From assembly GCA_023053545.1 (NCBI GenBank), contig JAKZAN010000001.1, positions 372,001-436,000 of the forward strand: 64,000 nucleotides of DNA, in the 5' to 3' direction. The translations under genes were made by a program, and so were the position numbers. The notes below the pieces were generated by a model that was given only the letters and a program-made list of their open reading frames with translations, was not told where the DNA came from and did no database searches. Shown here in pieces: positions 16,801 through 62,200 of the stretch; positions within the stretch are counted from its first letter, which is position 1, and every line of letters begins with the position of its first letter. This stretch comes from Lepidurus packardi. Lineage: Eukaryota; Arthropoda; Branchiopoda; Notostraca; Triopsidae.

Positions 16801-18776
16801 GAACTCAGGGTGTACCCGGCAAGACTGGAGAACCCGGCCCGAAAGGTAAACAACTGTGACTGCTAAAGAACTTTTGTTTTTACACTTGCTTTCCACCGTT
16901 TTAGGACCTCCTGGCAGAGATGGCAATCCTGGCTTGCAGGGTATTATGGGACCCCCTGGACCTCGAGGATCTCCTGGTGAAAACGGTACATGCCAAATTT
17001 CTTCATTTCTTCGAGAGTATTCCAATTTCTTTCAAGAAGTATTTCTGAAAATTTCTGGAAATTTCTGAAAATTTCTGGAAATTTCTGAAAATTTCTGGAA
17101 ATTTCTGAAAATTTCTGGAAATTTCTGAAAATTTCTGGAAATTTCTGAAAATTTCTGGAAATTTCTGAAAATTTCTGGAAATTTCTGAAAATTTCTTTGG
17201 AAAGAGATAGTCCTAGAAATATTTGACACGAGGACATTATCGGTGGTTTCCATAGAAATGTTTTGAATCCATTTTATGTGGGAATCTTCGAGAGTAATTT
17301 CTACAAATCGATATTTAGCCTCGATTAGACGATTAGACGATTTCACGTTGGATAATAACGCGCAATTTGTATTTGCTCACAGGTAAACAAGGTATTCAGG
17401 GTATTGCTGGACCTCCTGGTCCTCCTGGTTCTCCTGGCGAATCCATGGGCTACGACGCCGCAGCTTTGGCAGCAATTCTGGGACAAGGTCAATCCAAGGG
17501 CCCTGATCCTAATGACGATCCTACCGTGGGCAGGGTTTCCAAGGAACTCAGCAACGATGAACGCAAGGCTTTGGTCGTCAAGGCATACGAACAGCTCAAG
17601 ATGGCCTTTGATAAATACACCAAGCCTACTGGCGACAAGGATGCTCCCGCGAAAACTTGCCGAGATTTGGTGGTGGCTCATCCCGAGCTTCCTTCTGGTA
17701 TGATTTCCTTCCCTTTTCTGTTTTTGTGGATTGTAGAGTAATTCGTTTGGATGGTAGGCGAGTACTGGATCGATCCTAACCAAGGCGACAGCCGCGATTC
17801 CATCCTGGTTTATTGCGACGTGAAGAAGCGCGCCAGCTGCCTGCGACCCAAACCCGAGAAGACCAAGCGTATGTCTTACGTGGGCAAACCTCGCTCCGAA
17901 GTCTGGTTCTCTGCGATGGACAGTGGCTACCAATTCACGTACAAGACCGACTCCAACCAGCTCACTTTCTTGCAGCTGTTGAGCAGCTATGGTAGCCAGA
18001 ACTTGACTTACCATTGCCAGAAATCAGTCGCTCACTACGACGCGCAAGATCGATCCTACAACAAAGCGCTCAAGATCATGAGCTGGAACGACGCCGAGTT
18101 GTCCGCCACAGGCAAGCCGCAATTCAAATACGAAGTCACCGAAGATGGCTGCAAGGTAGGATTCCCTTTTACCTTCTTAATATCTTATTTATTACTTCCT
18201 TATGTCATATTTATTCTCATATCATATCATATGTATTCTCCAATCATAATCATAATCATTTATTCTCCAATCATAATCATAATCATTTATTCTCCAAATT
18301 CAAATGGAATCTTGTCTAATACGTAATACGATTAATAACGAGTAATACGATTATTAACGAGTAATACGATCAATAACGAGTAATACGATTAATAACGAGT
18401 AATACGATTATTAACGATTAATACGATTAATAACGAGTAATACGATTATTAACGAGTAATACGATTAATAACGAGTAATACGATTTGTCTTTGAAGTACT
18501 GTATTTACATTTTTTGTCCACGTGCTCCTTAGTTTCGATGATTTGTATCGATTTATTACTGTTCATGATGTTGATGATATTACTGCACTTAACAGTTTTG
18601 ATTTTTGCTAATTTTTGTATTTTTTCCAGTTCCGTGGCGATGAATGGGCCAAGACTGTTATTTCGTACGAGTCAAACAAACCCAGTCGCATTCCATTCGT
18701 AGACGTGGGTCTGGCAGATGTGGGCGATTCCAGCCAGCAATTTTCGTTGGAGTTGGGCATGGCCTGCTTCTGGTAG
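7803..18776 (+). CDS. Fibrillar procollagen alpha chain with VWC N-propeptide
   Basis: 38 exons, 1621 aa: 7803-7965, 8958-9005, 9215-9256, 9469-9528, 9703-9876, 9996-10142, 10288-10409, 10474-10530, 10604-10844, 10929-11053, 11716-11815, 11887-11993, 12072-12170, 12271-12370, 12579-12632, 12699-12841, 12997-13150, 13293-13409, 13673-13869, 13938-14099, 14195-14312, 14378-14457, 14526-14579, 14666-14765, 14924-15075, 15171-15270, 15338-15471, 15580-15679, 15730-15899, 16043-16151, 16218-16324, 16382-16471, 16588-16713, 16773-16845, 16905-16985, 17383-17697, 17758-18155, 18630-18776. Order: signal peptide; acidic Tyr/Pro/Thr-rich stretch; ten-cysteine VWC module (exons 6-7); 12-triplet minor helix; N-telopeptide; major helix, residues ~343-1356, 338 triplets; C-telopeptide; COLFI propeptide with [11 protein letters not shown] and [11 protein letters not shown], ending ACFW. 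Secreted matrix protein that trimerises through the C-propeptide. Several exons are 54 bp or related sizes, as in animal fibrillar collagens. Oddities: a Gly-to-Ala break at residue ~940 and a C-propeptide lacking the two interchain cysteines (see findings). Exon 11 uses the donor GTCCGG, chosen because it alone keeps the triplet frame. Extra small exons in the 1-kb first intron cannot be excluded. Confidence 0.95.
11139..11582. mobile_element. MITE-like element in collagen intron 10
   Basis: The ends are inverted repeats of each other. The outer ~31 bases read TGGTCTGTCGTGTAAAGTGA followed by CGGATCCGTCA from either side, and a second matching block (GAGCTGAGGCAAATT) lies further in. Each terminal repeat contains the perfect palindrome TGACGGATCCGTCA. 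The 444-bp element has no coding capacity. I see no clear target-site duplication. This fits a non-autonomous DNA transposon. Confidence 0.75.
13431..13592 (+). repeat. 33-bp minisatellite in collagen intron 18
   Basis: About five copies of a 33-bp unit containing TTTGAAATGCTCTGAAATTT. It sits in the intron between the exons ending at 13409 and starting at 13673. The unit length is a multiple of three, so an open frame runs across it, but the peptide is an artefact of the repeat. Confidence 0.85.
17035..17197 (+). repeat. 20-bp minisatellite in collagen intron 35
   Basis: About eight near-perfect copies of a 20-bp unit built on GAAAATTTCTGGAAATTTCT, in the intron between the exons ending at 16985 and starting at 17383. 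The near identity suggests recent expansion and likely length polymorphism. Confidence 0.9.
18190..18484 (+). repeat. Two tandem repeats in the last collagen intron
   Basis: ATCATAATCATAATCATTTA-type repeats at about 18241-18298 are followed by about nine copies of a 19-20 bp unit (TAATACGATTAATAACGAG) at 18318-18484. Both lie between the last two coding exons. Confidence 0.85.
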
Positions 18777-39109: not shown

Positions 39110-40468
39110 ATGGGTAAAAAACGCAGCAGGTCGATCGAAAAGAAATCACCCAAGAAAGGTGCTAAAACAGACAGTGTACCAGTAGAACCAGTAGTTGCTT
39201 TACCCCTCGAGAGAAAATCAGATGAACCAGCACCCAAAAAGGTTAGTTCTCATGTTGATATGTTACATGGCTTAATAGCATGTCTTGAACGCTTGCTAAA
39301 CCTGTTTCCTTTAATACCCAGGCAAAATGGACCAACAAGAACAGAGTCTTGGTGTTTTCTGCTCGAGGAACGACTCAAAGAGACAGACATTTGATGACAG
39401 ATTTAAGGAATATGATGCCTCATTCCAAGCCCGAAAGCAAAATGGAGAAAAAGGATCCTTATTTCGTTATTAATGAGGTAAAGGCAACGCACCTACCGAT
39501 CCAAAAACTTACAGCTTTTGTTTAATAGATATGCGAGATGAAGAATTGCAACAAATCCGTCTTCTTTGAGGGAAGGAAAAAACAAGACTTGTACGTTTGG
39601 TTTGCCAATATTCCCAAGGGCCCCTGTGCCAAACTTTTGCTAGAAAACAGTAAGAATCCAAATTGAATGCAACTTACAGTCTAATTGGCTGTTCTTAGTT
39701 CATACCATGGGAGAGTTGAAGATGACTGGGAACTGCTTGAAAGGGTCCAGACCCCTTTTATCATTTGACAAAACCTTCGATGCCAAACCACATTGGGCAA
39801 TAATGAAAGAATTGCTTACCCAGGTACTTCTAGTATTCTATTAATTAGTGTTAGCCGTTAGCTGGTAATGTATTGATAGATCTTTTCCACTCCACGCGCT
39901 CATCCCAAAAGCCAGCCGTTCTTCGATCACGTCTTTACTTTCTGTATATACGACAACCGTATTTGGTTCAGGAACTTCCAAATTGTAGAAGAAGATGGTC
40001 AAATGGCTGAAATAGGTAATAACAAGGATTTAGCTGTTATCTGTTTAACGTAATTATTATTAGGTCCTCGCTTTGTCATGAACCCGATTAAGATCTTCGA
40101 AGGAAGCTTTGCTGGCCAAGTTTTGTGGGAGAATCCTGACTACGTATCACCTAATATGGTAATAACCAAATTCATCCTCGGTCATTAGAACAATTTAAGA
40201 TTTTGTCTCCCTCGTTCAGTACCGTCGCATTATCAAAAAAGCTTCTGGCATGAAATATCGCGAGAGGGTTGAACAGAAAATATCCAAGGAAGTACGCAAA
40301 CCGGACGGCCCGTCCTATGACTTGGATCCTCTGGACGAAGTCTTCGACACAGAGGCAACTCCGGCCCCTAAAGTTCCCGCAAAAGTTGCTAAGAAGCAGC
40401 CAGTACTACGGAAGAAGAAGACAAAGCAGGGAAGAACGGCGCAGGCTGCAGTCCAAGCAGAAGCCTAA
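39110..40468 (+). CDS. BRIX1: Ribosome biogenesis factor BRX1
   Basis: Seven exons: 39110-39241, 39322-39477, 39529-39649, 39699-39823, 39880-40015, 40064-40158, 40220-40468; 337 aa. Nucleolar factor for 60S subunit assembly. A Lys-rich N-terminus precedes the Brix domain, which shows NRVLVFSARGTTQRDRHLM, DLRNMMPHSKPE, FFEGRKKQDLYVWFANIPKG, MGELKMTGNCLKGSRPLLSF and FTFCIYDNRIWFRNFQI, all typical of BRX1. The C-terminus is a basic tail (LRKKKTKQGR). Introns are 48-80 nt. Confidence 0.95.
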
Positions 40469-41633
40469 GGATTGTCGTGATGTTTAAGTTGAAATACAGG
40501 CCTACTTTTGTTCGTCAATAACTCTAGTAACAAGTCAAAGATATAAAGGAGTCAAGGGTATGGAAAGAGACCTTCTTACAGAATGCTTTTAACATCCTGA
40601 GTTAACTTCTAGAGAATACAAATCATGGCACCAATAGGATTCGTCCATTTCGGAAAGCGCGCCTCCTTTTCTAGCGGATTTTTTTGAAAAATTACGCAAA
40701 ATATTTACAATTTTCACTTTTATTGCAAATGATACAAACAGATTCCGATTTGGATGTATCACAGTCACTTGAAGTAATGTATGTGACATTATTTTGAGAA
40801 AGTTTTGTCTTAATCAAAAAATTCGAAAATATTTAGAGGCCTGTTGCTACAAAGTTAAACCTATGAAAAATGTATTTATCTTTAGAATTCCAACCAATTT
40901 GAATAGCGCGCGTTATTGGAATGGCGGCAAGGGGGGCTTTGCCCAATTGTGCGGCCTTTGCAACTTGCCCAACTTTGTCCAACTGGCAGTCGCGCTCGCA
41001 AAGCCGAACAAGTTACATGTTCAGAAAGAAACTATTGTTATGCATAACATACAGAACAGTTGTTTTTTAGCTGAATTTGCCTAACTTACTCTTTCTGCAG
41101 TTATTGAACAACGTTCGTGTTAATTTATAAGCATTCATTCAGCTTAAATTGTGGATTTTGTGCGTGTTTTCAGTGCGGAGTTTCATTCAAACGTTTGGGC
41201 GTCTAGGCCTTTTTTAACGTCAAAAACGGACGGTTTTGTGAAATTTGGGCTGGGCAAGCTCAAACAGGATGCCGCTGGGTTATTCTTTTGCCTGCTCCAG
41301 TTGGTAATTATAATTTGATTTTTTAGGAGAGACATCCTTATTTCTTTGATTGTTATTCAAATGAAGCTGAGTGAAAACATGGCGTGCCACGTGGGAGAGA
41401 TACGTGTAAGATTAAGGAAAGATATTTTGTTAAGGTATTTAGCAGTTTAATTTAATGCAGTAGATCAGTAATAATAAAAGGAATCAAATAGGTCCGTCTT
41501 CTTTACGTCGCAGCTTTCGTTCTTATGAATTCGGCTTATTAGTTATTTATTTATACATGTAAACGAATGACTATATTTCTCCCTTCATACGTCGTCGGAA
41601 GCAATTGGAAGCTTTTTTGCTTGATCCCCAAGT

Positions 41634-44600
41634 GTGGCTAGGGGACGTGGACTTTCCAAAAATTTCGTTCCTATCCATTTCTTGTGTACAGTTACTTGTT
41701 ATTTGTGCACTTATTTGTTGTGTACAGTTATTCATTGCCATTTCTTTAATTTTTCTTTTTTGGGGGGAATAGTATGGCTAGAACGCAGAATGCCAGAATA
41801 CGGAATTAGAAAAAAACTACCCAATCACGTTGCTAACGTTGCCGTAGCCTCTAGCGAAATGGATACAGCCCTCTGTAGGCACTCGCCGCCACTTTGCATA
41901 GCGGACGGAATTAATCCGTCAGCCATTTTGTGAACAGACGCCAAGCCAACTCCACGTCAGGTAATTTGCTCCTGTTTTATTCAAATTATTTTTAATCCCA
42001 TCCGACTTTTATCCAACTGAAAGGCAAACAGACCTAACTATTATGCAATCAGCTTGCATATTATCACATTTTCTTAATTAAAAGTAACAATGTTGATAAT
42101 GTTCGACAGTATTCCCATGGGTAAGCGTCAGTAGATTTCGAACAATTTTTCGAACGTTTTCAAGTTTATTCACTCCCATTGGCATTAATTCAATTAAAAA
42201 CTACTAGGAGGTTACCATATTCTGCCTTTCGTTTCCTCTACTTAGGCGAAGATTTTGTTTATTCTATTTTGTCACGAAAATGTTCAAAATCCGATTTGAG
42301 TAATTTCCAGATTTCTCTTAATTCCTCAATCCTCATGACTACCAACAAAGATACACCCTCGGAGGGTAATCCTGTTTTTGGATTTAAAAAATTATCAATG
42401 CAAACAAATTTAGCAATTTTCCGGCTAAAAAACGTAATATTAAAAATTCCCGCATGGCCGCCATTGTCGGTCCCGGTCAAAGCTCCAGCGAACGTTTTTG
42501 TCCCCGCCCTGTTCCGCCATCTTGATTTTTCTAGTCGGGTGGGATGACGTACTTTTTTCGAGACTCAAATTCATTTTGTCAAAGCGTAAAACCGTGTTAA
42601 GTTGTGTTTAAAGATGATCAGTATTACTAAGAGTTGTCCCTTTTCTATTTCTTAGGTGGTGACAAATTTCACAAACAGTTCTATTGTTACAACGTGTTAA
42701 GTGTGTGATCCTTTCCCTCCTCCCGTTCCACTCAGCCAACTTGATCCCCGTGCCTCTTGCCGTCCTTTTGGTTTGAATTTTTTGATTTGAATGAACTCGA
42801 TCTTTTCTATTAATATCTGCCTTGTCATTGTCTAATAGGCTTGTGATAGAGCTCCGTTTGGCTACTATTCCCTATGGGGAAATACCACGAGCAGGCCCGT
42901 TCAGTCTTCATGGTCGTCTGGGTTTTGGTGGGCGTGGTTGTGGCCCGGTGGAGGACCAGCAGGCAAGGGACGGTATTGCGTGTGTGGTGTTGAAGAGGGC
43001 GGAGTAAGTTTTGATTTCTTACTTTTTTTTTAAATTCTCTCTACTAATGTTGTTGTTTTTATTCCAATAGGCTATCCATTATTACTTAACAACATCTCCA
43101 TGAGATTGTGCCTTTATTGTATCGTTCAATTCCGTCCATTAGAAGAAAGCGAAGAGTCTTGTGAGCTGCAGTTATCAAATCCCCCAGTTTCGTCCTTGGC
43201 CTTCACAACTGGAGGTAAAATAGTTTCATTGGAATGAACTAGATTTAAAAAAGGAATATTTGCTAGGTCCCTAGGCTATGATGGGCTTCAGATAGAGCTC
43301 AGTATAGAATCGTACGGTGAGCTTGGTCTGCTCATTTGTTGTGAATCTTTGAACCGGAGGCTGTTCCAACCCACGGAAGCCCCACATTTCGGGACTGTAG
43401 CAAGTATTGCCACGTTCTGGAGATCCACGGTAAGCTCCTAGCCAACTTTTGATGGATTTCATTGCCACATTAATGTGTCTTCTGTTTAGTTTGACCCTTG
43501 GAGCAGATGCTTTATGGAAATGACGCAAGGAGATCGCAGATATTCGTCAAGACTTGAACTGTCGTGTGGTGTGCGTTGCTTTCCCTCCTCCGATTAGTTA
43601 ATTTTTTGGTAAGGGATTTTTATATTTGTATTTTCCTTCATTTGTTAGGGGGTGGGAATAGTATTGCTAACACGCTAAATGTCAGAATATGGAGTTTAAA
43701 AACACTCACCCAACGCAGTGCCCAATCAGGATGCTCGTAATGTTGCCATGGTTTCTGGCGAATGGGTACAGCCCTCTGTCGGCGCTTGTCGGTGCTTGTC
43801 GGTGACGACGGAATTAATCTCGTCTGCGAACAAAACTAGAACCTTCTACACGTCAGGTATTTTGCTCCCGTTTTATTTCAAGTTTATCGACTCCCATCCG
43901 ACTTGTATCAAAGTGAAAGCATCCAACACTTGTATAGTATGCAAGCAGCATGCATATTCTCACAGTTTGCTCATTAAAAGTAGCAATATTGAGCATTTTC
44001 GACATAATTCCCGAGGGTTGGCGTCAGTAGGTTTCGAACGTTTTCAAGTTTCTTCGCTCCCCGTTGGCTACATATTGCCATTAGTGTCAAGTTCCCGCAG
44101 TGCCTTCCATTTCCTCTACTCAGACAACGATTCGTTCTTTCTATTTTTCACGAAATCCGATTTTCTTTTTAGCAATTTTCCAGTGGCTTTTTTGATGTGT
44201 CAAGTCGGGTGGGGTGACTGTTTTAGTGACTCAACTTAAACTGGACAAAGCTTACAAAGTTGTGCTTAAACCTTACAAAGTTTACCCTTACAAAGTTGTG
44301 CTTAAACCTGAACGGTATTTACTAAGAGTTCCTTTTCTATTTATTAGACGGTGCCACATTTCACAGTGAGTGATAGTATTACAACGTGTTAAGCGTGTGG
44401 TGCTCATCCATTCCCTCTTCCTGTTCTGCTAAGCTGAGGCTGTGGGGAGCTATTATTTCATGTGCTGTGCTGGTGGAATCCGGCTGCGATTTTGCCGTGT
44501 TTTTAAGATTGTTGCTGTTTTCGGGGGGATCCACGTGTTCGCTCAGTCGAGGTAAGAACTTGTTTGAATTTTTTCCAAAGTGGCTTTCTGGTTTCTTTCC

Positions 44601-45530
44601 CCAGTCGAAGAGTCATCCCCAGTCGAAGAGTTATATGTTTGCAAGCTGTCCCATCTACAAGCTGCACTAAACCCTACAAACTGCGCCATCTATTATCAAC
44701 TAGTAGAGACTCACTGAACACCCCCAAGGCACAAACGAACCAGCAGAAGGGTGTTTTTCTCCTGATACTTTTGACGTAATACTGATGCTTGTCTCTTTTG
44801 TTCTAGAATTCTCGGCGAAAACGAAGGGAAGGCTTTCAACTGCATTCACTGCGTGACTACCCAAGATTAGAGCCATTTGAAGCCTTTCTGACGCTAAACT
44901 CCGCCCACTTTTGAAGAAGACGAGGAAACTTGTGAGCCGCAGTTACCAGATTCGTCTTTGATGTTCGTTACGCAAGGTCCATTTTTTAGTTTTAATGAAC
45001 TCGATCTTTTTGTATTAATATCTGCTTTGTCATTGTCTAATAGGCTTGAGGTAGAGCTCCGTTGTGCTAATATTTCGCATTGGGAAATACCACGAGTGTG
45101 TTAAGTCTTCAACGGTAGCAACGGACCTTCTCTGGGTTTTGGAGGGCGTGGTTCGGGTGCATTGTGGGGCCTGTGGAGGACCAGCAGGAAAGGGGATGTG
45201 GTGATGAAGAGGCGGAGTAAGTTTTGACTTGTTATTTTTTTTATTCTCTATACTAGTGTTGTTGTTTTTATTCAAATAGGCTATCCATTGGAACTCCTGC
45301 GTTATTACTTAACAACATCTCAATGACATTATGAATGTATGTTGTTAAATGCCGTCCATTAGAAGAAAGCGAAGACATAAGAAGTGGCTCGGTTCTGGCC
45401 CTCGAATTCGCCACAAGTTTCGGTTTGGCAAGCCGTTCTCTGATTCGCTACCATGGATGGACGAACCCGAACCGAAGCTGCGTAGCACTGCATGTGTTTT
45501 CGTATAAACACCAAACCGTGTCCGGATAGT
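41634..45530 (+). repeat. Diverged ~2-kb tandem duplication inside the left arm
   Basis: Unit 1 (about 41750-43215) and unit 2 (about 43670-45370) share long similar stretches: CAACGT/CACGTTGCTAA, GACGGAATTAAT, CACGTCAGGTA plus TTTGCTCC, TAATATCTGC with TTGTCATTGTCTAATAGGCT, GGAAATACCACGAG, GGACCAGCAGG and GGCTATCCATT. They differ by many substitutions and indels, so the duplication is much older than the palindrome's inner identity. The right arm carries the mirror image. Confidence 0.7.
43100..43597 (+). CDS. Unrecognised 125-aa spliced candidate gene, left arm
   Basis: Three exons, 43100-43214, 43275-43429 and 43490-43597, with two 60-nt GT-AG introns and phases that match (125 aa). Intron size is that of the host genes, which argues that this is a real spliced gene. 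The protein starts MRLCLYCIVQFRPLEESEE, continues with CELQLS and GYDGLQIELSIESYG, and ends in a Cys- and Arg-rich stretch (DPWSRCFMEM, RRYSSRLELSCG). It looks beta-rich. No signal peptide or membrane segment is obvious. I do not recognise a family. Two degenerate relatives of the first exon lie downstream (about 44880-44990 with a frameshift, and 45335-45529). The upstream exon-like stretch 42839-43003 does not join in frame, so any 5' exons are noncoding or missed. Confidence 0.45.
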
Positions 45531-45849
45531 TTCAAGAGTTTGTTGCCTTTGAACGGATGTCCACCCTGAGAACCCTATAACGTCAGTTGCTCCCTAGCAA
45601 GCAGTCAGTGCTCACCTGCTTCTCTCCAGCGATGTTGTGAAAGCTAGTAGTGAGTTTATAGTTAAACATTCCCAAGCATGTTGAACATTAACAATCGGAT
45701 TAAGTGTTATCTTCGAAAACATTACCAATTGGATCTTCGAAAACCTGGAGTCAATTCAAGTGCGCGTTTAAAGTGTTACGTGTGGTGTTTGGCAAAAGGC
45801 TTGTCAGGCCTATGCCAGTGCAAAAATATGTGTTCTCTACTTCATCTCT

Positions 45850-46195
45850 ATGTGTGCTCTCTACTTCATCCCTGCATTACACCGGAAATGCAAAAGTGAG
45901 GACGAATGTCTCAAACGTGTGTTGTTGTTTTTTACTTGTGTGTCGGGAGTCTACAAACACAAAATTCGGCAAGTTTTCTCCTCCATAGTCCTCCTCCTTT
46001 TCATACGTTTTCTGTTTTCACTCGTTTTGGGAGCCTTCCTCTGCGGATGTGTTCACACTTATTTGTAAGTTTTAAACATTTTGTTAATGAATTGATTTCA
46101 TGCGTGCTAATATTTTTCTCTTTTCTTCTAGTTTTCGGTGGCAAAATGAAGGGGAAGAGGAAGTAATCCTGTGCCAAGAGGTCAGCATCTCCTAA
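45850..46195 (+). CDS. Unrecognised 92-aa candidate membrane protein, left arm
   Basis: Two exons, 45850-46064 and 46132-46195, with a 67-nt GT-AG intron and matching phase. After a Cys/Lys-rich start the protein has one or two hydrophobic stretches (RVLLFFTCVSGVY, then VLLLFIRFLFSLVLGAFLCG) and an acidic tail (NEGEEEVIL). It may have upstream exons: the frame before the Met is open, and TCTCTACTTCATC is tandemly duplicated there. No family recognised. Confidence 0.35.
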
Positions 46196-47280
46196 CGAAT
46201 CAGATTTCAGTGTAAACGTCATGGGGACCTTCGGAGTGATGGTAGTAACGCTTTAAATTTACATTTGTAAGTTTTTACTACTCATTGTTTCTTTCAGGCT
46301 AGCAAATAGAAGGCTATTTGGATCGAATATTTGGATTGAAGTCGAATATGGATGACAAGATTTCGAAGCGGGTAGCAAAAAGCCGATTTACATGCAGTTT
46401 GTATTGTTGAGATTTCTTTTACATTTTAATTTTCTTCACTTTTCCCCAAGTCACGCTTTAGATTCGCCGCTTCTTCATTCGCCGTTCTCCTAGTACTTCA
46501 GGATTTCAGTTGAGTTTCAACTGACTTGACTTTTAATTTATTTTCTTAATTTTAAGTTTTATTTATTTGTTTTGTTTATTTGTTCGCCTTATTTGTTGTA
46601 CCAAAAAGTTCCCCGTAAAATCTAGTTTCCAAAAATGTCCTTTTTGTATTATTTGCCAATTTTGCAATAAAAATTAAAATTTTAAATATTTTTGCGTGAA
46701 TTTTCAAAAAATCCGCTAAAAAAGGGGGCGTGGTTTCCGAAATGGACGAATCCTATTGGTGGATTGGACGAAAAAGGGGGCGTGGCTCCTTTTCGAGATT
46801 TCGAAGCGTTTTCTGGGCTTTTCTCCATAAGGAATAATGCTGTATCAAGGGGGTCCCCTTGAAAAATCGTCAAAAATTGAAGCCTCGCCCCCTTTCCCTG
46901 TACCCAACTCCCCTGCTCGGTTTCCTATCCACGATATTCGAGCTCGTAATGCCGAAGCATCACAATTTCGAATATGCGAATAGGAACCTTGCGGGAATTT
47001 GAAGGTCATTGAGGTCATTTGAAGGTTATTTGAAGTCCGGGTAGCTAATGGTGTACGTGCAAGGTTGCATGAAGGTCATTTGAAGGTTATTTGAAGGTCA
47101 TTGAGGTCATTTGAAGGTTATTTGAAGGTCATTGAAATCCAATTCAATGACCTTCAAATAACCTTCAAATAACCTTCATGCAACCTTGCACGTACACCTT
47201 TAGCTACCCGGACTTCAAATAACCTTCAAATGACCTCAATAACCTTCAAATAACCTTCTCGCAACCTTGCACGTACACCA

Positions 47281-47352
47281 TGTATACATACATACACATA
47301 CATACATACATACACATACATACATACACACATACATGCATATACATATATA
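47281..47352 (+). repeat. (ACAT)n microsatellite
   Basis: Run of CATACATACACA-type tetranucleotides in the palindrome spacer, grading into a TATATA stretch. Confidence 0.9.
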
Positions 47353-47409
47353 TACACCTTGGTTCCTATGTTGCTTATATACCTGCCTCAACGCCTATTA
47401 TATATAAGC

Positions 47410-47476
47410 CCATGACCGCGTGGATACCACGCATGACTGGGGACCCAAAGGTCCTCGGTTCGATTCCCGGTCGTGG
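47410..47476 (+). other. tRNA-like sequence with perfect B box
   Basis: GGTTCGATTCC at 47457-47467 is an exact RNA polymerase III B box. The ends CCATGACC and GGTCGTGG pair over 8 bp, and GCGTGG-ATA-CCACGC forms a D-arm-like hairpin. The anticodon region (GGACC-CAAA-GGTCC) folds with a 4-nt loop and the T stem has a mismatch, so it is not a functional tRNA. It fits a tRNA-derived SINE head or a tRNA pseudogene. Confidence 0.5.
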
Positions 47477-48339
47477 CACTTTATTTCGTCGAATAAACGA
47501 AATATTAATTGGCTCCCTTTCCCTGTACCATATGCCTTCCTGGCAAGGTTCCTATTCGCATATTCGAAATTGTGATGCTTCGGCATTACGAGCTCGAATA
47601 TCGTGGATAGGAAACCGAGCAGGGGAGTTGGGTACAGGGAAAGGGGGCGAGGCTTCAATTTTTGACGATTTTTCAAGGGGACCCCCTTGATACAGCATTA
47701 TTCCTTATGGAGAAAAGCCCAGAAAACGCTTCGAAATCTCGAAAAGGAGCCACGCCCCCTTTTTCGTCCAATCCACCAATAGGATTCGTCCATTTCGGAA
47801 ACCACGCCCCCTTTTTTAGCGGATTTTTTGAAAATTCACGCAAAAATATTTAAAATTTTAATTTTTATTGCAAAATTGGCAAATAATACAAAAAGGACAT
47901 TTTTGGAAACTAGATTTTACGGGGAACTTTTTGGTACAACAAATAAGGCGAACAAATAAACAAAACAAATAAATAAAACTTAAAATTAAGAAAATAAATT
48001 AAAAGTCAAGTCAGTTGAAACTCAACTGAAATCCTGAAGTACTAGGAGAACGGCGAATGAAGAAGCGGCGAATCTAAAGCGTGACTTGGGGAAAAGTGAA
48101 GAAAATTAAAATGTAAAAGAAATCTCAACAATACAAACTGCATGTAAATCGGCTTTTTGCTACCCGCTTCGAAATCTTGTCATCCATATTCGACTTCAAT
48201 CCAAATATTCGATCCAAATAGCCTTCTATTTGCTAGCCTGAAAGAAACAATGAGTAGTAAAAACTTACAAATGTAAATTTAAAGCGTTACTACCATCACT
48301 CCGAAGGTCCCCATGACGTTTACACTGAAATCTGATTCG

Positions 48340-48685
48340 TTAGGAGATGCTGACCTCTTGGCACAGGATTACTTCCTCTTCCCCTTCATTTTGCCACCGA
48401 AAACTAGAAGAAAAGAGAAAAATATTAGCACGCATGAAATCAATTCATTAACAAAATGTTTAAAACTTACAAATAAGTGTGAACACATCCGCAGAGGAAG
48501 GCTCCCAAAACGAGTGAAAACAGAAAACGTATGAAAAGGAGGAGGACTATGGAGGAGAAAACTTGCCGAATTTTGTGTTTGTAGACTCCCGACACACAAG
48601 TAAAAAACAACAACACACGTTTGAGACATTCGTCCTCACTTTTGCATTTCCGGTGTAATGCAGGGATGAAGTAGAGAGCACACAT
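48340..48685 (-). CDS. Unrecognised 92-aa candidate membrane protein, right arm copy
   Basis: Mirror copy of 45850-46195: exons 48685-48471 and 48403-48340 on the minus strand, apparently identical in sequence. Confidence 0.35.
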
Positions 48686-50937
48686 AGAGATGAAGTAGAG
48701 AACACATATTTTTGCACTGGCATAGGCCTGACAAGCCTTTTGCCAAACACCACACGTAACACTTTAAACGCGCACTTGAATTGACTCCAGGTTTTCGAAG
48801 ATCCAATTGGTAATGTTTTCGAAGATAACACTTAATCCGATTGTTAATGTTCAACATGCTTGGGAATGTTTAACTATAAACTCACTACTAGCTTTCACAA
48901 CATCGCTGGAGAGAAGCAGGTGAGCACTGACTGCTTGCTAGGGAGCAACTGACGTTATAGGGTTCTCAGGGTGGACATCCGTTCAAAGGCAACAAACTCT
49001 TGAAACTATCCGGACACGGTTTGGTGTTTATACGAAAACACATGCAGTGCTACGCAGCTTCGGTTCGGGTTCGTCCATCCATGGTAGCGAATCAGAGAAC
49101 GGCTTGCCAAACCGAAACTTGTGGCGAATTCGAGGGCCAGAACCGAGCCACTTCTTATGTCTTCGCTTTCTTCTAATGGACGGCATTTAACAACATACAT
49201 TCATAATGTCATTGAGATGTTGTTAAGTAATAACGCAGGAGTTCCAATGGATAGCCTATTTGAATAAAAACAACAACACTAGTATAGAGAATAAAAAAAA
49301 TAACAAGTCAAAACTTACTCCGCCTCTTCATCACCACATCCCCTTTCCTGCTGGTCCTCCACAGGCCCCACAATGCACCCGAACCACGCCCTCCAAAACC
49401 CAGAGAAGGTCCGTTGCTACCGTTGAAGACTTAACACACTCGTGGTATTTCCCAATGCGAAATATTAGCACAACGGAGCTCTACCTCAAGCCTATTAGAC
49501 AATGACAAAGCAGATATTAATACAAAAAGATCGAGTTCATTAAAACTAAAAAATGGACCTTGCGTAACGAACATCAAAGACGAATCTGGTAACTGCGGCT
49601 CACAAGTTTCCTCGTCTTCTTCAAAAGTGGGCGGAGTTTAGCGTCAGAAAGGCTTCAAATGGCTCTAATCTTGGGTAGTCACGCAGTGAATGCAGTTGAA
49701 AGCCTTCCCTTCGTTTTCGCCGAGAATTCTAGAACAAAAGAGACAAGCATCAGTATTACGTCAAAAGTATCAGGAGAAAAACACCCTTCTGCTGGTTCGT
49801 TTGTGCCTTGGGGGTGTTCAGTGAGTCTCTACTAGTTGATAATAGATGGCGCAGTTTGTAGGGTTTAGTGCAGCTTGTAGATGGGACAGCTTGCAAACAT
49901 ATAACTCTTCGACTGGGGATGACTCTTCGACTGGGGAAAGAAACCAGAAAGCCACTTTGGAAAAAATTCAAACAAGTTCTTACCTCGACTGAGCGAACAC
50001 GTGGATCCCCCCGAAAACAGCAACAATCTTAAAAACACGGCAAAATCGCAGCCGGATTCCACCAGCACAGCACATGAAATAATAGCTCCCCACAGCCTCA
50101 GCTTAGCAGAACAGGAAGAGGGAATGGATGAGCACCACACGCTTAACACGTTGTAATACTATCACTCACTGTGAAATGTGGCACCGTCTAATAAATAGAA
50201 AAGGAACTCTTAGTAAATACCGTTCAGGTTTAAGCACAACTTTGTAAGGGTAAACTTTGTAAGGTTTAAGCACAACTTTGTAAGCTTTGTCCAGTTTAAG
50301 TTGAGTCACTAAAACAGTCACCCCACCCGACTTGACACATCAAAAAAGCCACTGGAAAATTGCTAAAAAGAAAATCGGATTTCGTGAAAAATAGAAAGAA
50401 CGAATCGTTGTCTGAGTAGAGGAAATGGAAGGCACTGCGGGAACTTGACACTAATGGCAATATGTAGCCAACGGGGAGCGAAGAAACTTGAAAACGTTCG
50501 AAACCTACTGACGCCAACCCTCGGGAATTATGTCGAAAATGCTCAATATTGCTACTTTTAATGAGCAAACTGTGAGAATATGCATGCTGCTTGCATACTA
50601 TACAAGTGTTGGATGCTTTCACTTTGATACAAGTCGGATGGGAGTCGATAAACTTGAAATAAAACGGGAGCAAAATACCTGACGTGTAGAAGGTTCTAGT
50701 TTTGTTCGCAGACGAGATTAATTCCGTCGTCACCGACAAGCACCGACAAGCGCCGACAGAGGGCTGTACCCATTCGCCAGAAACCATGGCAACATTACGA
50801 GCATCCTGATTGGGCACTGCGTTGGGTGAGTGTTTTTAAACTCCATATTCTGACATTTAGCGTGTTAGCAATACTATTCCCACCCCCTAACAAATGAAGG
50901 AAAATACAAATATAAAAATCCCTTACCAAAAAATTAA

Positions 50938-51435
50938 CTAATCGGAGGAGGGAAAGCAACGCACACCACACGACAGTTCAAGTCTTGACGAATATCTGCG
51001 ATCTCCTTGCGTCATTTCCATAAAGCATCTGCTCCAAGGGTCAAACTAAACAGAAGACACATTAATGTGGCAATGAAATCCATCAAAAGTTGGCTAGGAG
51101 CTTACCGTGGATCTCCAGAACGTGGCAATACTTGCTACAGTCCCGAAATGTGGGGCTTCCGTGGGTTGGAACAGCCTCCGGTTCAAAGATTCACAACAAA
51201 TGAGCAGACCAAGCTCACCGTACGATTCTATACTGAGCTCTATCTGAAGCCCATCATAGCCTAGGGACCTAGCAAATATTCCTTTTTTAAATCTAGTTCA
51301 TTCCAATGAAACTATTTTACCTCCAGTTGTGAAGGCCAAGGACGAAACTGGGGGATTTGATAACTGCAGCTCACAAGACTCTTCGCTTTCTTCTAATGGA
51401 CGGAATTGAACGATACAATAAAGGCACAATCTCAT
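50938..51435 (-). CDS. Unrecognised 125-aa spliced candidate gene, right arm copy
   Basis: Mirror copy of 43100-43597: exons 51435-51321, 51260-51106 and 51045-50938 on the minus strand, apparently identical. The two copies point toward the centre of the palindrome. Confidence 0.45.
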
Positions 51436-53615
51436 GGAGATGTTGTTAAGTAATAATGGATAGCCTATTGGAATAAAAACAACAACATTAGTAGAGAGAA
51501 TTTAAAAAAAAAGTAAGAAATCAAAACTTACTCCGCCCTCTTCAACACCACACACGCAATACCGTCCCTTGCCTGCTGGTCCTCCACCGGGCCACAACCA
51601 CGCCCACCAAAACCCAGACGACCATGAAGACTGAACGGGCCTGCTCGTGGTATTTCCCCATAGGGAATAGTAGCCAAACGGAGCTCTATCACAAGCCTAT
51701 TAGACAATGACAAGGCAGATATTAATAGAAAAGATCGAGTTCATTCAAATCAAAAAATTCAAACCAAAAGGACGGCAAGAGGCACGGGGATCAAGTTGGC
51801 TGAGTGGAACGGGAGGAGGGAAAGGATCACACACTTAACACGTTGTAACAATAGAACTGTTTGTGAAATTTGTCACCACCTAAGAAATAGAAAAGGGACA
51901 ACTCTTAGTAATACTGATCATCTTTAAACACAACTTAACACGGTTTTACGCTTTGACAAAATGAATTTGAGTCTCGAAAAAAGTACGTCATCCCACCCGA
52001 CTAGAAAAATCAAGATGGCGGAACAGGGCGGGGACAAAAACGTTCGCTGGAGCTTTGACCGGGACCGACAATGGCGGCCATGCGGGAATTTTTAATATTA
52101 CGTTTTTTAGCCGGAAAATTGCTAAATTTGTTTGCATTGATAATTTTTTAAATCCAAAAACAGGATTACCCTCCGAGGGTGTATCTTTGTTGGTAGTCAT
52201 GAGGATTGAGGAATTAAGAGAAATCTGGAAATTACTCAAATCGGATTTTGAACATTTTCGTGACAAAATAGAATAAACAAAATCTTCGCCTAAGTAGAGG
52301 AAACGAAAGGCAGAATATGGTAACCTCCTAGTAGTTTTTAATTGAATTAATGCCAATGGGAGTGAATAAACTTGAAAACGTTCGAAAAATTGTTCGAAAT
52401 CTACTGACGCTTACCCATGGGAATACTGTCGAACATTATCAACATTGTTACTTTTAATTAAGAGAATGTGATAATACGCAAGCTGATTGCATAATAGTTA
52501 GGTCTGTTTGCCTTTCAGTTGGATAAAAGTCGGATGGGATTAAAAATAATTTGAATAAAACGGGAGCAAATTACCTGACGTGGAGTCGGCTTGGCGTCTG
52601 TTCACAAAATGGCTGACGGGATTAATTCCGTCCGCTATGCAAAGTGGCGGCGAGTGCCTACAGAGGGCTGTATCCATTTCGCCACAGGCTATGGCAACGT
52701 TAGCAACGTGATTGGGTAGTTTTTTTCTAATTCCGTATTCTGGCATTCTGCGTTCTAGCCATACTATTCCCCCCAAAAAAGAAACATTAAAGAAATGGCA
52801 ATGAATAACTGTACACAACAAATAAGTGCACAAATAACAAGTAACTGTACACAAGAAATGGATAGGAACGAAACTTTTGGAAAGTCCACGTCTCCTAGCC
52901 ACACTTGGGGATCAAGCAAAAAAGCTTCCAATTGCTTCCGACGACGTATGAATGGAGAAATATAAGCATTCGTTTACATGTATAAATAAATAACTAATAA
53001 GCCGAATTCATAAGAACGAAAGCTGCGACGTAAAGAAGACGGACCTATTTGATTCCTTTTATTATTACTGATCTACTGCATTAAATTAAACTGCTAAATA
53101 CCTTAACAAAATATCTTTCCTTAATCTTACACGTATCTCTCCCACGTGGTACGCCATGTTTTCACTCAGCTTCATTTGAATAACAATCAAAGAAATAAGG
53201 ATGTCTCTCCTAAAAAATCAAATTATAATTACCAACTGGAGCAGGCAAAAGGTGGAAAAGAATAACCCAGCGGCATCCTGTTTGAGCTTGCCCAGCCCAA
53301 ATTTCCCAAAACCGTCCGTTTTAGACGTTAAAAAAGGCCTAGACGCCCAAACGTTTGAATGAAACTTCGCACTGAAAACACGCACAAAATCCACCATTTA
53401 ATCTGAATGAATGCTTATAGATGAACAGGAATGTTGTTCGTAACTGCAGACAGACTAAGTTACGTAAATTCAGCTAAAAACACAACTATTCTATACATAA
53501 ATTTATGCATAACAATAGTTTCTGTCTGAACATGTAGCTTGTCCGACTTTTCGAGCGCGACTAAGGCTGCAAGTTGGACAAAGCGCCTCTTGTGGCCGTT
53601 CCATTAACGCGCACT

Positions 53616-54067: not shown

Positions 54068-54530
54068 ATGGAAACAGAGCTACAAAGAACTGTGGATGAC
54101 CTGTAAGTTGAGTATGTAGTCCAAAAATCCAAATGCTAATTGAAATTTCTTAGGATGAGGGATCCAAATGTTACTGGTGTCCTTTGTGCGGATAAACAAG
54201 GAATGTGTGTGGCAGGTGGGTACCCTTTTACACTAGAAAACGAAGCTTTAGATAATTAAAATAAATCTTCTTTAGTTGCTGGTAAAGCGAATACCAAGGC
54301 TGCAGGAACTATTACAGCCATTGCTAACTTGGCAGCTACGTTGGAGACTGATAGTGAAAATCCTGTTATTTCCTTAGAAAGCCAAAATAGGTAGGAAATT
54401 AAAACAAAAAATAACGGTTTGTACTGCCTCTGAACTTGGGAGTTGAAAACATGTATTCCCTAGTCGTTGCCTTATACATCAGAATGCAGGAGTGACATTG
54501 GCCATCTACAAGAAACGCGAGCCTGTGTAA
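54068..54530 (+). CDS. LAMTOR5: Ragulator subunit LAMTOR5 (HBXIP)
   Basis: Four exons: 54068-54102, 54154-54215, 54276-54390, 54464-54530; 92 aa against 91 in human. Roadblock-fold subunit of the Ragulator complex, which anchors Rag GTPases on lysosomes for mTORC1 activation. Family features: METELQRTVDDLMRDPNVTG, VLCADKQGMCVA, and the closing NAGVTLAIYKKREP, matching the IMIQKHDGITVAVHK strand of the vertebrate protein. Introns are 51-73 nt. EIF2B2 starts 276 bp downstream on the same strand. Confidence 0.92.
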
Positions 54531-54806: not shown

Positions 54807-57003
54807 ATGCCGGGCTTGGATAAAGATTTGTCGGAGTTAGTGAGCTCTTTTAAAAACGATGTCAATCAAGGGTAAGTTCTTTCGTCCTTTCGTAACTATT
54901 TTGAAAAGTTTGGATCGAAAGCATACATCAATACTATTTGTCATTCTTCGCAATAACAAAAGGTGGAATTATTATTTTTTTTTTCAAGGAAATATTTCGA
55001 CTCGTATACATTGGTGCAGCAGACGGTTAATTTGCTACGGAAAGTGATTGCCCACTCTAAATGGAACAGTGCAGCGGAACTGATTTCCTTGCTAAAAGAA
55101 CAGGGCAAAGAACTGGTTAATTCAGCCCCTTCTGAGAACTCGATAGGAAATATGGTCCGCCGGATCCTTAAGATTATTCGGGACGAAAACGCCTCTCCTC
55201 ACAAAGTAAACTCAGCCTTGTTCGGTCTGCAAATCGAATTTTATGCTTATCCTATTTTATACTTATCTTTCTTTCAATTACAGGGCAACCAGGAAGATGA
55301 ACTGGAGGAATCCTTACACAAATTGGTACTCATTGAAGGTGAAGACTGCAAGCACGACATTACGTCCGTCAACCTGAAAGCTGCGATTATGGAAAACTTG
55401 GGCGAACTACTCATGGAGTTCGAAACCAGCGTTGATAATATCGCAGCCAAAGCGTTAGAACATATCCACTCTAATGAGATCATTATGACCATCGGACGCT
55501 CGCGGACAGTAGAAACCTTCCTGAAACACGCTGCCATGCACCGCACTTTCCAAGTGATCGTGGCCGAATGTGCCCCGTTTTATAACGTAAACCACTTCCG
55601 TTCATATCTCTGTTTTATAACCTAAATTCTTATAATCTAAACTCTTATAATCTAAAATTCTTATAATCTAAACTCTTATAATCTAAACTCTTATAATCTA
55701 AACTCTTATAATCTAAATTCTTATAATCTAAACTCTTATAATCTAAACTCTTATAACCTAAATTCTTATAATCTAAACTCTTATAATCTAAACTCTTATA
55801 ATCTAAACTCGTATAATCTAAACTGTTATAATCTAAACTCTTATAATCTAAAATCTTATAATCTAAAATCTTATAATCTAAACTCTTCCAGGGTCAAGAA
55901 ATGGCACTTAGCCTAGCCAAAGCCAAAATCCAAACGACTTTAATTCCGGATACCTCCATATTCGCTATGATGGCCCGAGTGAATAAAGTCATCATGGGGA
56001 CGCATTCTGTTATGGCCAATGGCGGCTTGAAAGCTGTGTGTGGCAGTCATACTGTCGCTTTAGCTGCGAAACACCATTCAGTCCCGGTAATAACCCGAAT
56101 CTTTCTACCTGAATCTACCTGAACTCGTTGAATTGGTCGGTGTTATCACTCCGATTAGGTGATCGTGTGCGCCCCGATGTACAAGTTCAGCCCGCAGTAC
56201 GTTTGCAGCTTAGACCAAGACGGCTTCAACAGTTTCGCGTCTCCGATTGATCTTATCCGAGGATCTGAAGGGGCAGTTTTATCCTCAGTGCAAATCTACA
56301 ACCCAGTTTTCGACTACGTGCCCCCGGAGCTGGTCAAACTCTTCATTTCCAACACGTAAAACTAATTCCGAAATTATTTGGATTATTTTTTAATAAATAG
56401 TATTTTAATAATTATTGTTTTTTAATTTTTTAATTAATAGTATTTTAGTAATTAATTAGTATTTTTTTTAATAAATAGTATTTTAATAAACACGTAAAAC
56501 TAATTCCAATTATTTGGATTATTTTGTAATAAATAGTATTTTAATAATTAGTATTTTTTGTAATAAATAGTATTTCAATAAACACGTAAAACTTCTAAAT
56601 TCCGAAATTATTTGGATTATTTTTTAATAAATTGTATTTTAATAATTAGTATTTTTCTATTTTTTTTAATAATTAGTATTTTAGTAATTAATCAGTACTT
56701 TTTTTAATAAATAGTATTTTAATAAACACGTAAAACTAATTCCGAAATTATTTGGATTATTTTGCAATAAATAGTATTGTTATTATTATATTATTTTTAT
56801 TTTTAGTATTATTATTAATATAATAGTATAATACTAATAGTATAGTAATAAATACTAATAATTCATATAATAGTATTCATTATTCGCAGGGAAGTTTCTC
56901 ACGTGTGTTCTTAAAAACTGTCTTTTCTAGTGGTGGACACGCGCCTTCTTACATATACCGTTTATTGAGCGAGTTATATCATCCACTGGACTCTGAATTG
57001 TAA
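54807..57003 (+). CDS. EIF2B2: Translation initiation factor eIF2B subunit beta
   Basis: Six exons: 54807-54871, 54989-55205, 55284-55586, 55892-56086, 56159-56355, 56931-57003; 349 aa (human 351). Part of the eIF2B regulatory core (alpha/beta/delta) that exchanges GDP for GTP on eIF2 and senses eIF2 phosphorylation. Family stretches: [102 protein letters not shown] and [16 protein letters not shown]. Intron 2 (78 nt) has no in-frame stop, so retention would insert 26 residues. Introns 4 and 5 are filled with tandem repeats. Confidence 0.95.
55622..55889 (+). repeat. 15-bp minisatellite in EIF2B2 intron 4
   Basis: About eighteen copies of CTTATAATCTAAACT with single-base variants, filling the intron almost to the acceptor of exon 4. 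The unit resembles the exon 3/intron 4 junction (TTTATAAC|GTAAAC), from which it may have grown. Confidence 0.9.
56351..56880 (+). repeat. Tandem repeats in EIF2B2 intron 5 carrying donor-site copies
   Basis: Units of about 90-150 bp begin with AACACGTAAAACT, which is the true exon 5 end and its donor (exon end at 56355). Copies start near 56489, 56580 and 56727, each followed by AT-rich TTTGGATTATTTT and TAATAAATAGTATTTTAATA. The last ~120 bp are plain AT-rich sequence. Confidence 0.85.
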
Positions 57004-59228: not shown

Positions 59229-62200
59229 ATGGAGGTCTCGTACGGAATCGGCGTTACCAATAGGTATGCACTATTTTACGACGAAAACGAAGATCCTCTG
59301 GATATTATCCAACAAACGGACAAAAAGGAGGCCCCTAAGAAATCCGACAAGGACGTGAAGGCAAGTAAAACGCCTGATGTGAAAGACAAGAAAGCACCTC
59401 AAGCTCCCGTAAATGGACAACCCAAGAAGGGACCTACTGTTCCATCAACAACGGCTAAACCTCAGGACCAAATTAAGCCTAAAGAAGGTAAGAATTTCTC
59501 ATAGAACTTTAACTAGTTCCCATGCTAAACCATTGGCACTTTGCATGGCGTGCACGTGTGGCGTGCGACACCACGCCGTCTTCTTTGCCGAGTCCCTAAT
59601 TTCTTCAGTCATTGTAAGACTCTGGTTCTGTACTATTTACACTGGGAAGTTTAAGTGCATGATTCCTAGTTTTTTACAATTCGAGAAAACCACGTGATGA
59701 GAACTTTCTGCCGAGAGTTAGGTCAAGTACCTAACTCGCTGAACCCAGGCAAGCCAAAAGGATACTGAAATCATTATTATCGCCCTATTATTGTTTTGTG
59801 TGTGATGTGAAAGTTTGGGCGATTTATGCTAATGCGAAGGCTATGTTTATGTTTACAGAGGGAAAAGCCCCTGGAGGCAAGCCCCCCCAAAACCGTGATC
59901 GCAACGTAAGATTTCCGAATGAAAACCGAGAACCACGCGAGGAACGCAATAATCGACGCAACTTTGATGAGCGTGGTAATCGCGAATTCACTGCCCCCGT
60001 CCGGGCTGAAGGCGAAGGTGGTGGCTTCGGTGGCGCCGACAATGGATTCCGAGGCAGAGGGACTGGCCCGCGTAACCCTGGCCGAGGGATGGGGCGTGGC
60101 CGAGCGCGAGGGCGTGGTGGCGTCCAAGACAACCGAGGCAAACGGGAGTACGAACGGCAATCAGGCTCACTGACGACTGGCATCAAGCCGGTGGACAAAC
60201 GGGAAGGCGCAGGACTTCACAACTGGGGTAGCGTCAAGGATGACATTGAGTGAGTTTGATTCTCGTACTTTTATCAAGTCATAAAATTCATACCTAAATG
60301 GATAGCGTGAGAGAAAAAACTGATGAGAAAACTGTTTGCCAAGGAGGTAAAAAAGACTTCCTAATGACACAGGCAAAGCCAAAAGGATACTGATACTATG
60401 TCCTCGAGGGGGTCGTTACGCAGATCAGGGGAGAACTTGGACTAACTTTTGTTTCCCTTGCTATTTTTAGAGGGCAGCTGGATTCGACCGTTGTGGAAGA
60501 GTTTACCGACTGGACCAAGGAAGTTCCCGAGGGAGAAACTGCTGCCACTGAGGAACCCAAGTACGTTTTTTTTTCTATTATTTTAATATATGTACTGTAC
60601 TATGTGCACATACTTGTATTATTGTAATTTTTATGATAAGATAATTTAGCATTAATCTAGTAATTGTTAGAATTCTTAAGTGTTAACTTTATTTTTTTTT
60701 GGTTAATTAAATTTTCTCTAGACAAGTAAGAATTATTAATAAGCAAGTATTTAGTCTACTTAATTTTATTTTTTTAATATTTTAATAATATTGTAATTAT
60801 TAATAATATTATTGTAATTCTTATGATAAGATAATTTAGCATTAATCTAATAATAATTAGAATTCTTAAGTGTTAACTTTATTATTTTTTTCTTAAATTA
60901 CATTTTCGCTGGGTAAGTAAGAATTATTTATCTAGTCTACTTAATTTTATTTTTTTAATATTTTAATAATATTATTGTAATTATTAATAATATGATTGTA
61001 ATTCTTAAGATAATTTAGCATTAATCTAATAATAATATTCTAATTCTTATGATAAGATAATTTAGCATTAATCTAATAATAATTGTTAGAATTCTTAAGT
61101 GTTAACTTTATTATTTTTTTCTTAAATTACATTGTCTCTGGATAAGTAAGAATTATTTATTTAGTCTACTTAATTTTATTTTTAATATTTTAATAATATG
61201 ATTGTAATTATTAATAATATTATTGTAACTCTTATGATAAGATAATTTAGCATTAATCTAATAATAATTGTTAGAATTCGTAAGTGTTAACTTTATTATT
61301 ATTATTATTATTATTTATTGCAACATATAAGGCTTTATAAAGCCTCTTTGTAACTATTTATCTCTACGAAATTGTAACGGGTCAAACATTTTTGAGCCAA
61401 AATGCTCATCTAGTGATTTTTTAAATGTCTGTGAGGAGGAGGATTCGATCACTTTTTCTGGTAGGCTATTCCATTCATCTACGATTCGGTTTTGGAAGGT
61501 CCAGCGGCCTACATCTTTGAGGAATCGTTCTGTCTTAAGTTTTAGGATATGGCCACGACAATTGCTTTGGTTGAAGCACAATATTTGTTCGGCGGACACA
61601 TTTTCATAATAGGCGTGACACAATTTAAACGCTTCTATCAGGTCACCCCGTAGAAACCTATATGCCAGAGTTGGCAGGTTCAAGGCTTTGAGTCTATCTG
61701 TATAGGAGAGGTGACGAAGATTTCCAAACTTTATTATTTTTTTCTTAATTACATTTTCTCTAGATAAGTAAGAATTATTTATTTAGTCTACTTAATTTTA
61801 TTTTTTAAATATTTTAATAATATTTTTTAATGTTTGGTACATAATTTGAATTTTTTTAAGCTAACGTAGCATGGTGCAGTAGTCCTGCACTCGAAAGCAA
61901 AACAGATTAACTTGTTTTATATGTGAAAGCAGGGCCATTTGTTAACGTAAATCAATAATTGTAGGAAAGCGAGTGTAATGGAGTACTAAAAGAAAAACAA
62001 GCTACTGTGATGAGATCTTTTATGCCAGGGTGGGATGTTTATCCAACTCAATGACCGGCAAGCCAAAAGGATGCTGAAAGTGGCCTGTTTGACTTGTTGT
62101 TTACCTTTAGTTTGTGCTATTTGGTTATCTTTCGCCCCGGTTTACCTTTGAGGGCTACTTATTTTGCCTGGGAAAGGGAAAGTTAGCTTACAGTGTCTCT

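Follow-up and report, generated by a model that had tools for sequence, protein, structure and literature searches.

When palindromes of several kilobases have near-perfect arms, the usual explanation is selection for the genes that lie within them, and the palindrome arms of the primate X chromosome are gene-bearing. According to the portions available of one report, the arms of these primate palindromes are more than 99% identical, which is explained by frequent arm-to-arm gene conversion, and are richer in guanine plus cytosine (GC) than their flanks (PMC8981503). Palindromic repeats are also described outside mammals, going by the title of the report, on a willow sex chromosome (PMC7023750). 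Among foldback-like transposable elements, the available text of two reports describes Galileo of the P superfamily in Drosophila mojavensis, with inverted ends of up to ~1.26 kb (PMC3573991), and Tetris in Drosophila virilis, whose ends reach 1,735 bp, which has three copies bearing target-site duplications, and whose tandem repeats also occur as satellite-like arrays (PMC4079207). The subject here is a palindrome of the notostracan Lepidurus packardi, located in a window of 64,000 bp (the whole stretch of DNA that was analysed) at positions 372001-436000 of contig JAKZAN010000001.1, referred to below as C1, in an assembly of 108.6 Mb and 344 contigs. With a probability of roughly two in three, the palindrome belongs to a family of large foldback-like inverted repeats that are non-coding and have arms homogenised by gene conversion.

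Self-comparison of the window, which contains no N, gives one inverted pair of arms of ~6.0 kb (40973-46992 and 47543-53583, BLAST limits) around a spacer of exactly 550 bp (46993-47542), so that the whole mirror stretch measures ~12.6 kb. The arms are about 99.0-99.1% identical (99.0% over 6,042 columns by BLAST), and their differences are distributed very unevenly. In a base-by-base alignment, the inner 4,921 bp are free of mismatches (42072-46992 aligned to 47543-52463), and the 36 BLAST mismatches are all confined to the outer ~1.1 kb; had they been spread evenly, they would all fall among the outermost 1,100 of the 6,021 columns with a probability of about 10^-26.6. Divergence climbs outward, with five changes at 41.9-42.1 kb, ten mismatches at 41.3-41.9 kb and up to ~12% outside 41.3 kb. 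The parts of the palindrome are:

40973-42071, forward strand: outer, diverged part of the left arm (outer segment A), with an identity to the right arm of 88.0% over the outermost 250 columns and of up to 98.8% further in
42072-46992, forward strand: inner part of the left arm, identical to the right arm
42777-43155, forward strand: internal diverged duplication of the arm, copy 1, 76.7% identical to copy 2
44981-45375, forward strand: internal duplication of the arm, copy 2
46993-47542, forward strand: spacer, with a degenerate 11/31-bp tandem array, an ATAC microsatellite and a stretch resembling transfer RNA (tRNA)
47388-47948, forward strand: dispersed repeat of ~560 bp over the end of the spacer and the start of the right arm
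47543-52463, reverse strand: inner, identical part of the right arm
52464-53583, reverse strand: outer, diverged part of the right arm

The internal duplication is mirrored in the right arm at 49160-49554 and 51380-51758.

At least nine related palindromes, the window copy among them, lie within 1.15 Mb of C1 (305-1,450 kb). Their centres are near 309.5, 419.3 (the window copy), 541.7, 625.6, 794.9, 973.4, 1150.4, 1426.7 and 1437.2 kb, and eight of them are named after these centres as P309, P419 (the window copy), P542, P625, P795, P973, P1150 and P1427. Arm lengths across the family range from 6 to 13.5 kb, and P1150 (C1:1136976-1164385, 27.4 kb) carries an 80-bp tandem array in each arm. 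The two arms are 91-93% identical in P542, 92-96% in P625, 90-98% by part in P973, 98.2% in P795, 98.75% in P1427, 99.9% in P309, and 97.8% (outer) or 99.5% (inner) in P1150. Sub-segments of the arms are arranged in several orders; in some palindromes the two sides have the same order, and in others they do not.

Counted per 500 columns from the outside to the inside, mismatches in the window copy number 23, 10 and 3 and then 0 to the centre. The profile of P795 reads 4, 19 and 7, then nine zero blocks (one with an indel), then 1, 19 and 20; that of P973 reads 23 and 15, followed by seven zero blocks (one with an indel) and 9. In P1150, the tips are diverged and are followed by ~5 kb with four mismatches, a diverged array and an inner 3.5 kb of zero. 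Identical or near-identical blocks of ~3.5-5 kb are thus bounded by diverged sequence on both sides in P795, P973 and P1150, and in the window copy only on the outer side. From 42.2 kb inward, the partner arm of the window copy is 100% identical in every interval compared, and the best other copy is 68% to 99.6% identical, reaching 100% in two of 19 full intervals; because the best other copy differs in the remaining 17, the identical blocks are not simply conserved. The bounded blocks, together with arms far more alike than their tips, support arm-to-arm gene conversion in the window palindrome and several of its sisters, as judged from one assembly, and this agrees with what the initial annotation had proposed for the window copy.

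Palindromes also seem to exchange sequence with one another. In its outermost 250 columns, the right arm of the window copy is 97.6% identical to P309, compared with 88.0% to the partner arm. In inner segment D, compared across 18 arms, the partner is the sole nearest sequence, at 0.00%, for eight arms, one arm is tied, and nine are nearest to another palindrome; the right arm of P973 equals the left arm of P795 (0.00%) at a distance of ~180 kb, and the left arm of P625 differs by 0.34% from that of the window copy. Among 21 copies of segment Cb on C1, the mirror copy is nearest at 0.00% in 16 and at 2.31% in one, the other four being nearest to another palindrome. The mirror copy stands at 0.00% in eight of 11 C1 copies of segment Ca, and the partner is nearest, at 0.00-1.83%, in seven of 12 C1 copies of segment A2. 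Mosaic structure was assessed with a home-made run-length permutation statistic (300 shuffles, giving a floor of p = 0.003) in which identical arms were not merged and the listed pairs are not independent; the best global p values were 0.003 for D, 0.003 for Cb and 0.010 for A2. The listed runs with p < 0.05 join palindromes as far as ~0.8 Mb apart (P625 and P1427, p = 0.023).

It is possible that the arms are alike only because they are young, a single repeat copy having been duplicated in inverted orientation through fold-back copying (template switch) without any conversion, and the nearly difference-free arms of P309 and P1427 and the inner arms of P1150 are what such an origin would leave. 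A recent duplication predicts even identity, however, and the zero-mismatch blocks adjoin stretches with 2-12% divergence, which lie on either side of the block in P795 and P973, with P1150 coming close to this pattern; edges of this kind would instead be left by conversion tracts. The right tip of the window copy is also nearer to another palindrome than to its partner, and arm types are shuffled among palindromes, which makes recent duplication an unlikely account of the family.

Alternatively, the identity could have been produced by the assembly, either by collapse of two arms into one consensus that was used twice or by a contig falsely folded back on itself. Runs of 100 N at C1:305001-305100 and C1:1432204-1432303 directly adjoin the arms of P309 and P1427, and these arms are therefore hard to assemble; exactly identical blocks with sharp edges are, moreover, what is expected at the edge of a collapsed repeat. 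A simple fold-back is opposed by the different genes at the two ends of the window copy, and the diverged tips and the asymmetric spacer also speak against an artefact. Collapse is opposed by the existence of similar palindromes with clearly diverged arms (P542 and P625), and by segments that the assembly keeps separate at 0.14% (P419 and P542, Cb), 0.34% (P419 and P625, D) and 0.22% (the two arms of P795, D), so that collapse would hide very small differences only. An artefact of this kind is accordingly less probable still than a recent duplication. The genes at the two ends are:

39110-40468, forward strand: BRIX1-like gene, ending 504 bp before the left arm, with start and splice sites placed by eye
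54068-54391, forward strand: LAMTOR5 exons, 484 bp past the right arm, with the start placed by eye and the last exon unplaced

Pfam detects Brix in exons to the left (best E 8.8e-10; three of five exon ORFs (open reading frames) tested, two above the cut-off) and LAMTOR5 in exons to the right (best E 3.3e-8; two of two exon ORFs, one above the cut-off), with an IF-2B domain at 54957-55622 to the right of LAMTOR5. BRIX1 and LAMTOR5 are thus the flanking genes, as first annotated, and the 12.7-kb palindrome described between them stands in its two inverted ~6.0-kb arms and 550-bp spacer, with limits slightly inside the original 40907-53615.

The palindrome arm is a dispersed repeat. Searches of the assembly returned 73 matches to the outer arm (among the best 40 of 348 candidates scored) and 170 to the inner arm (among the best 31 of 526). 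Genome-wide sites were counted with two arm 26-mers at up to three mismatches, for which control matches numbered 0 each. The 26-mer from outer segment A has 68 sites and that from inner segment D has 102 (100 listed), both spread over many contigs and concentrated within C1 0.3-1.45 Mb, where 16 of the 68 A sites fall against ~0.7 expected if uniform (~22-fold) and 35 of the 100 listed D sites against ~1.1 (~33-fold). Neighbouring A sites no more than 40 kb apart face inward in 12 of 16 pairs (binomial p = 3.8e-5), and five of the seven pairs off C1 do so, four on C3 and one on C6. The inverted structure at C3:4199694-4215068 has end repeats of 1.94 kb that are 99.5% alike. The inverted ends are internally repetitive, with the 80-bp array in the P1150 arms and on C3, ~10-bp repeats at some tips, and the internal duplication.

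Several side observations concern the wider distribution of the arm sequence. A variant of the A 26-mer (with AAACATGAAC) has nine of its 15 sites on C1, C3, C4 and C5 within 300 kb of a contig end, as judged by eye, and its sites include C1:152-273 kb and 13.86 Mb, C3:27-87 kb and C5:12.31-12.43 Mb; perhaps it marks a subfamily of chromosome ends. Three D sites on the same strand at C2:4328103-4337177 lie at nearly even intervals of 4,530 and 4,519 bp, which points to arm-like units arrayed in tandem. At C5:62001-80000, inverted arm segments surround, by eye, ~5 kb with a kinesin-like ORF (69101-69736, forward strand), and a host gene may lie inside a palindrome there.

No gene was found in the arms by tests of frame, stops, substitution and Pfam content, which suggests that the arms are apparently non-coding; the spliced candidate genes of the initial annotation show no coding signal that holds across copies. 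Twelve arm ORFs, each aligned with 3-24 copies, were scored as open when a relative had neither a frameshifting indel nor a new stop. The relatives keeping them open number 0 of 19, 6 of 18, 2 of 12, 0 of 8, 5 of 20 and 0 of 9 for the first six and 9 of 14, 8 of 13, 5 of 24, 0 of 19, 0 of 3 and 0 of 10 for the remainder, so that none of the 12 is open in every relative and ten are broken in more than half; a further ORF, 44507-44776, is open in 0 of 18 copies. The two that are more often open overlap each other, at 45704-45985 (9 of 14, substitution ratio 0.86) and 45772-46065 (8 of 13, ratio 1.63). Across six frames, median substitution ratios range from 0.79 to 2.74 (18-58 aligned stretches per segment). 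Intervals with low ratios often, though not always, hold stops; the lowest stop-free one is at 42837 (frame +0, segment B, ratio 0.27), and its ORF was tested in turn. The substitution test lacked a positive control from this genome, and Pfam did detect the flanking genes. At the cut-off, Pfam finds no family in ten arm ORFs, nor in a six-frame translation of the initial 4,982 bases of L042, which belongs to the sister palindrome P1150 and whose best match (E = 0.00026) falls short of its cut-off. Short, fast-evolving or RNA genes in the arms are not excluded.

An ampliconic gene palindrome like those of sex chromosomes, kept for the genes in its arms, could be read from near-identical arms, a short spacer, several palindromes on one chromosome, the two more-open ORFs and a 70-codon ORF (42795-43004) with a low substitution ratio of 0.42, but it is highly improbable given the ratios of the former two, frameshifting indels in 12 of 14 copies of the latter, the breakage of the other ORFs, the Pfam results and the spread of the sequence over many contigs. 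What survives of the ampliconic analogy drawn at the outset is the conversion; its gene content does not, copies occur on many contigs, GC is not raised and no link between C1 and sex is known.

Other observations, besides the assembly gaps and the low ratio of the 70-codon ORF, weigh against a foldback-like family homogenised by conversion. The ten arm ORFs and ~5 kb of P1150 revealed neither a transposase nor any other coding part. Target-site duplications were not seen at the window copy, P625, P973 or C3:4199694-4215068, whose termini are ragged, and four further elements examined for them had one end each captured. There is no single sharp terminus, and the outer flank is common to copies over very different distances. 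Transposon membership is therefore unproven. Inward pairs are not in excess among D sites taken alone (12 of 37, p = 0.19; three of 11 off C1), perhaps because some arms carry D twice on the same strand. P542 and P625 contain no zero-mismatch block, and with gaps included the divergence between their arms is 4-9%, so that conversion is uneven across the palindromes. In P795 and P1150, tandem arrays make up part of the inner diverged stretches; such arrays align poorly and would be expected to diverge in any case, and some inner block edges consequently weigh less. The mosaic test, with its home-made statistic, is not significant in Ca (best global p = 0.196). Lastly, the GC content of the inner arms (0.414) is not raised over the rest of the window (0.421) and hence bears no mark of GC-biased conversion, which was rejected.

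If the palindrome belongs to a foldback-like family, the element would be, or descend from, a DNA transposon that is non-autonomous, has very long inverted ends and has acquired internal sequence along with other repeats. Its arms could pair, as a hairpin or between sisters or homologues, after a break or a stalled fork, and gene conversion would then overwrite one arm from the other in tracts of several kilobases but fail toward the tips as homology runs out. Among the C1 palindromes, tracts may in turn be spread over hundreds of kilobases by ectopic conversion or exchange. A wider proposal can be made only tentatively, namely that at least nine giant non-coding palindromes within 1.1 Mb swap tracts of several kilobases, both between their own two arms and with one another, and that a selfish inverted repeat, not genes, maintains palindromes resembling those of sex chromosomes. 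The stretch of C1 may itself be special, as a region where crossing-over is reduced, a sex or mating region, or a domain at a chromosome end. A family of palindromes that seem to lack genes and bear the same signature of conversion suggests that arm homogenisation requires only paired inverted homology, and with many replicate palindromes at varied stages of homogenisation in one genome, tract length, edges and partner choice become measurable.

The spacer was initially annotated as unique, which does not hold, since its 3' part is a dispersed repeat and its tandem array is found again in sister palindromes. The array has a self-inverted core at 46997-47251 and is followed by the microsatellite at 47284-47342. 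The ~560-bp repeat occurs at 23 places off C1 among the best 40 of 389 scored candidates; these 23 matches start near query positions 1-25, and 21 of them end at 569-570. Within it, 47413-47423 and 47457-47467 are, by eye, box-A-like and box-B-like sequences. A tRNA gene in the spacer was rejected, as ARAGORN finds none and Rfam no tRNA; the 30 Rfam matches there all score below the gathering thresholds and fall mostly on the self-inverted array and the microsatellite.

Outside the palindrome, the window holds short tandem arrays at 17041-17196, 55615-55887 and 60796-61266, and an ORF at 61354-61779 (reverse strand) that by eye resembles the C-terminal end of the reverse transcriptase of a non-long-terminal-repeat retrotransposon; Pfam gives no family for it at E 0.01. 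Long matches to the COX1 family that lack internal stops occur at C52:160321-161757, C214:60865-62079 and C43:162713-164005, and these contigs are possibly bacterial (symbiont); many COX1-family matches elsewhere contain TGA and look like nuclear mitochondrial copies.

A search of the literature for autosomal palindromes gave no match, and no comparable palindrome family was found among the titles and abstract openings of part of the matches. Palindromic repeats beyond mammals are shared with the willow, where, by the title of the report, they lie on a sex chromosome (PMC7023750). Compared with the primate X palindromes as the available text presents them, the arms described here have no genes found in them, consist of dispersed sequence, are not raised in GC and have no known link to sex (PMC8981503). 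The likeness to Galileo, in the portions of that paper at hand, extends to long, internally repetitive inverted ends, to ends that recruit internal sequence, the longest-ended copies being non-autonomous, and to chimeric copies with ends from different subfamilies and no matching target-site duplications (PMC3573991). Unlike Galileo, the palindromes described here have arms of 6 to 13.5 kb and multi-kilobase blocks that lack mismatches, and no copy was found to carry a transposase; the term 'gene conversion' does not appear in the text available of that paper (PMC3573991). In the corresponding portions of the Tetris report, each inverted end consists of an outer domain, tandem repeats and an inner domain, the middle domain has no apparent protein-coding capacity, and the repeats group with one another in two of the three complete copies, a pattern for which homogenisation was proposed (PMC4079207); the arms described here are much longer than those of Tetris, and target-site duplications were not seen. 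By analogy, the layout of the Lepidurus palindromes, which comprises an outer domain, tandem repeats, an inner domain and a centre, with no coding part found, with chimeric ends and with ends lengthened by internal sequence, is most likely that of foldback-like elements such as Galileo and Tetris, with arms several times longer, at 6 to 13.5 kb against 1.3-1.7 kb.

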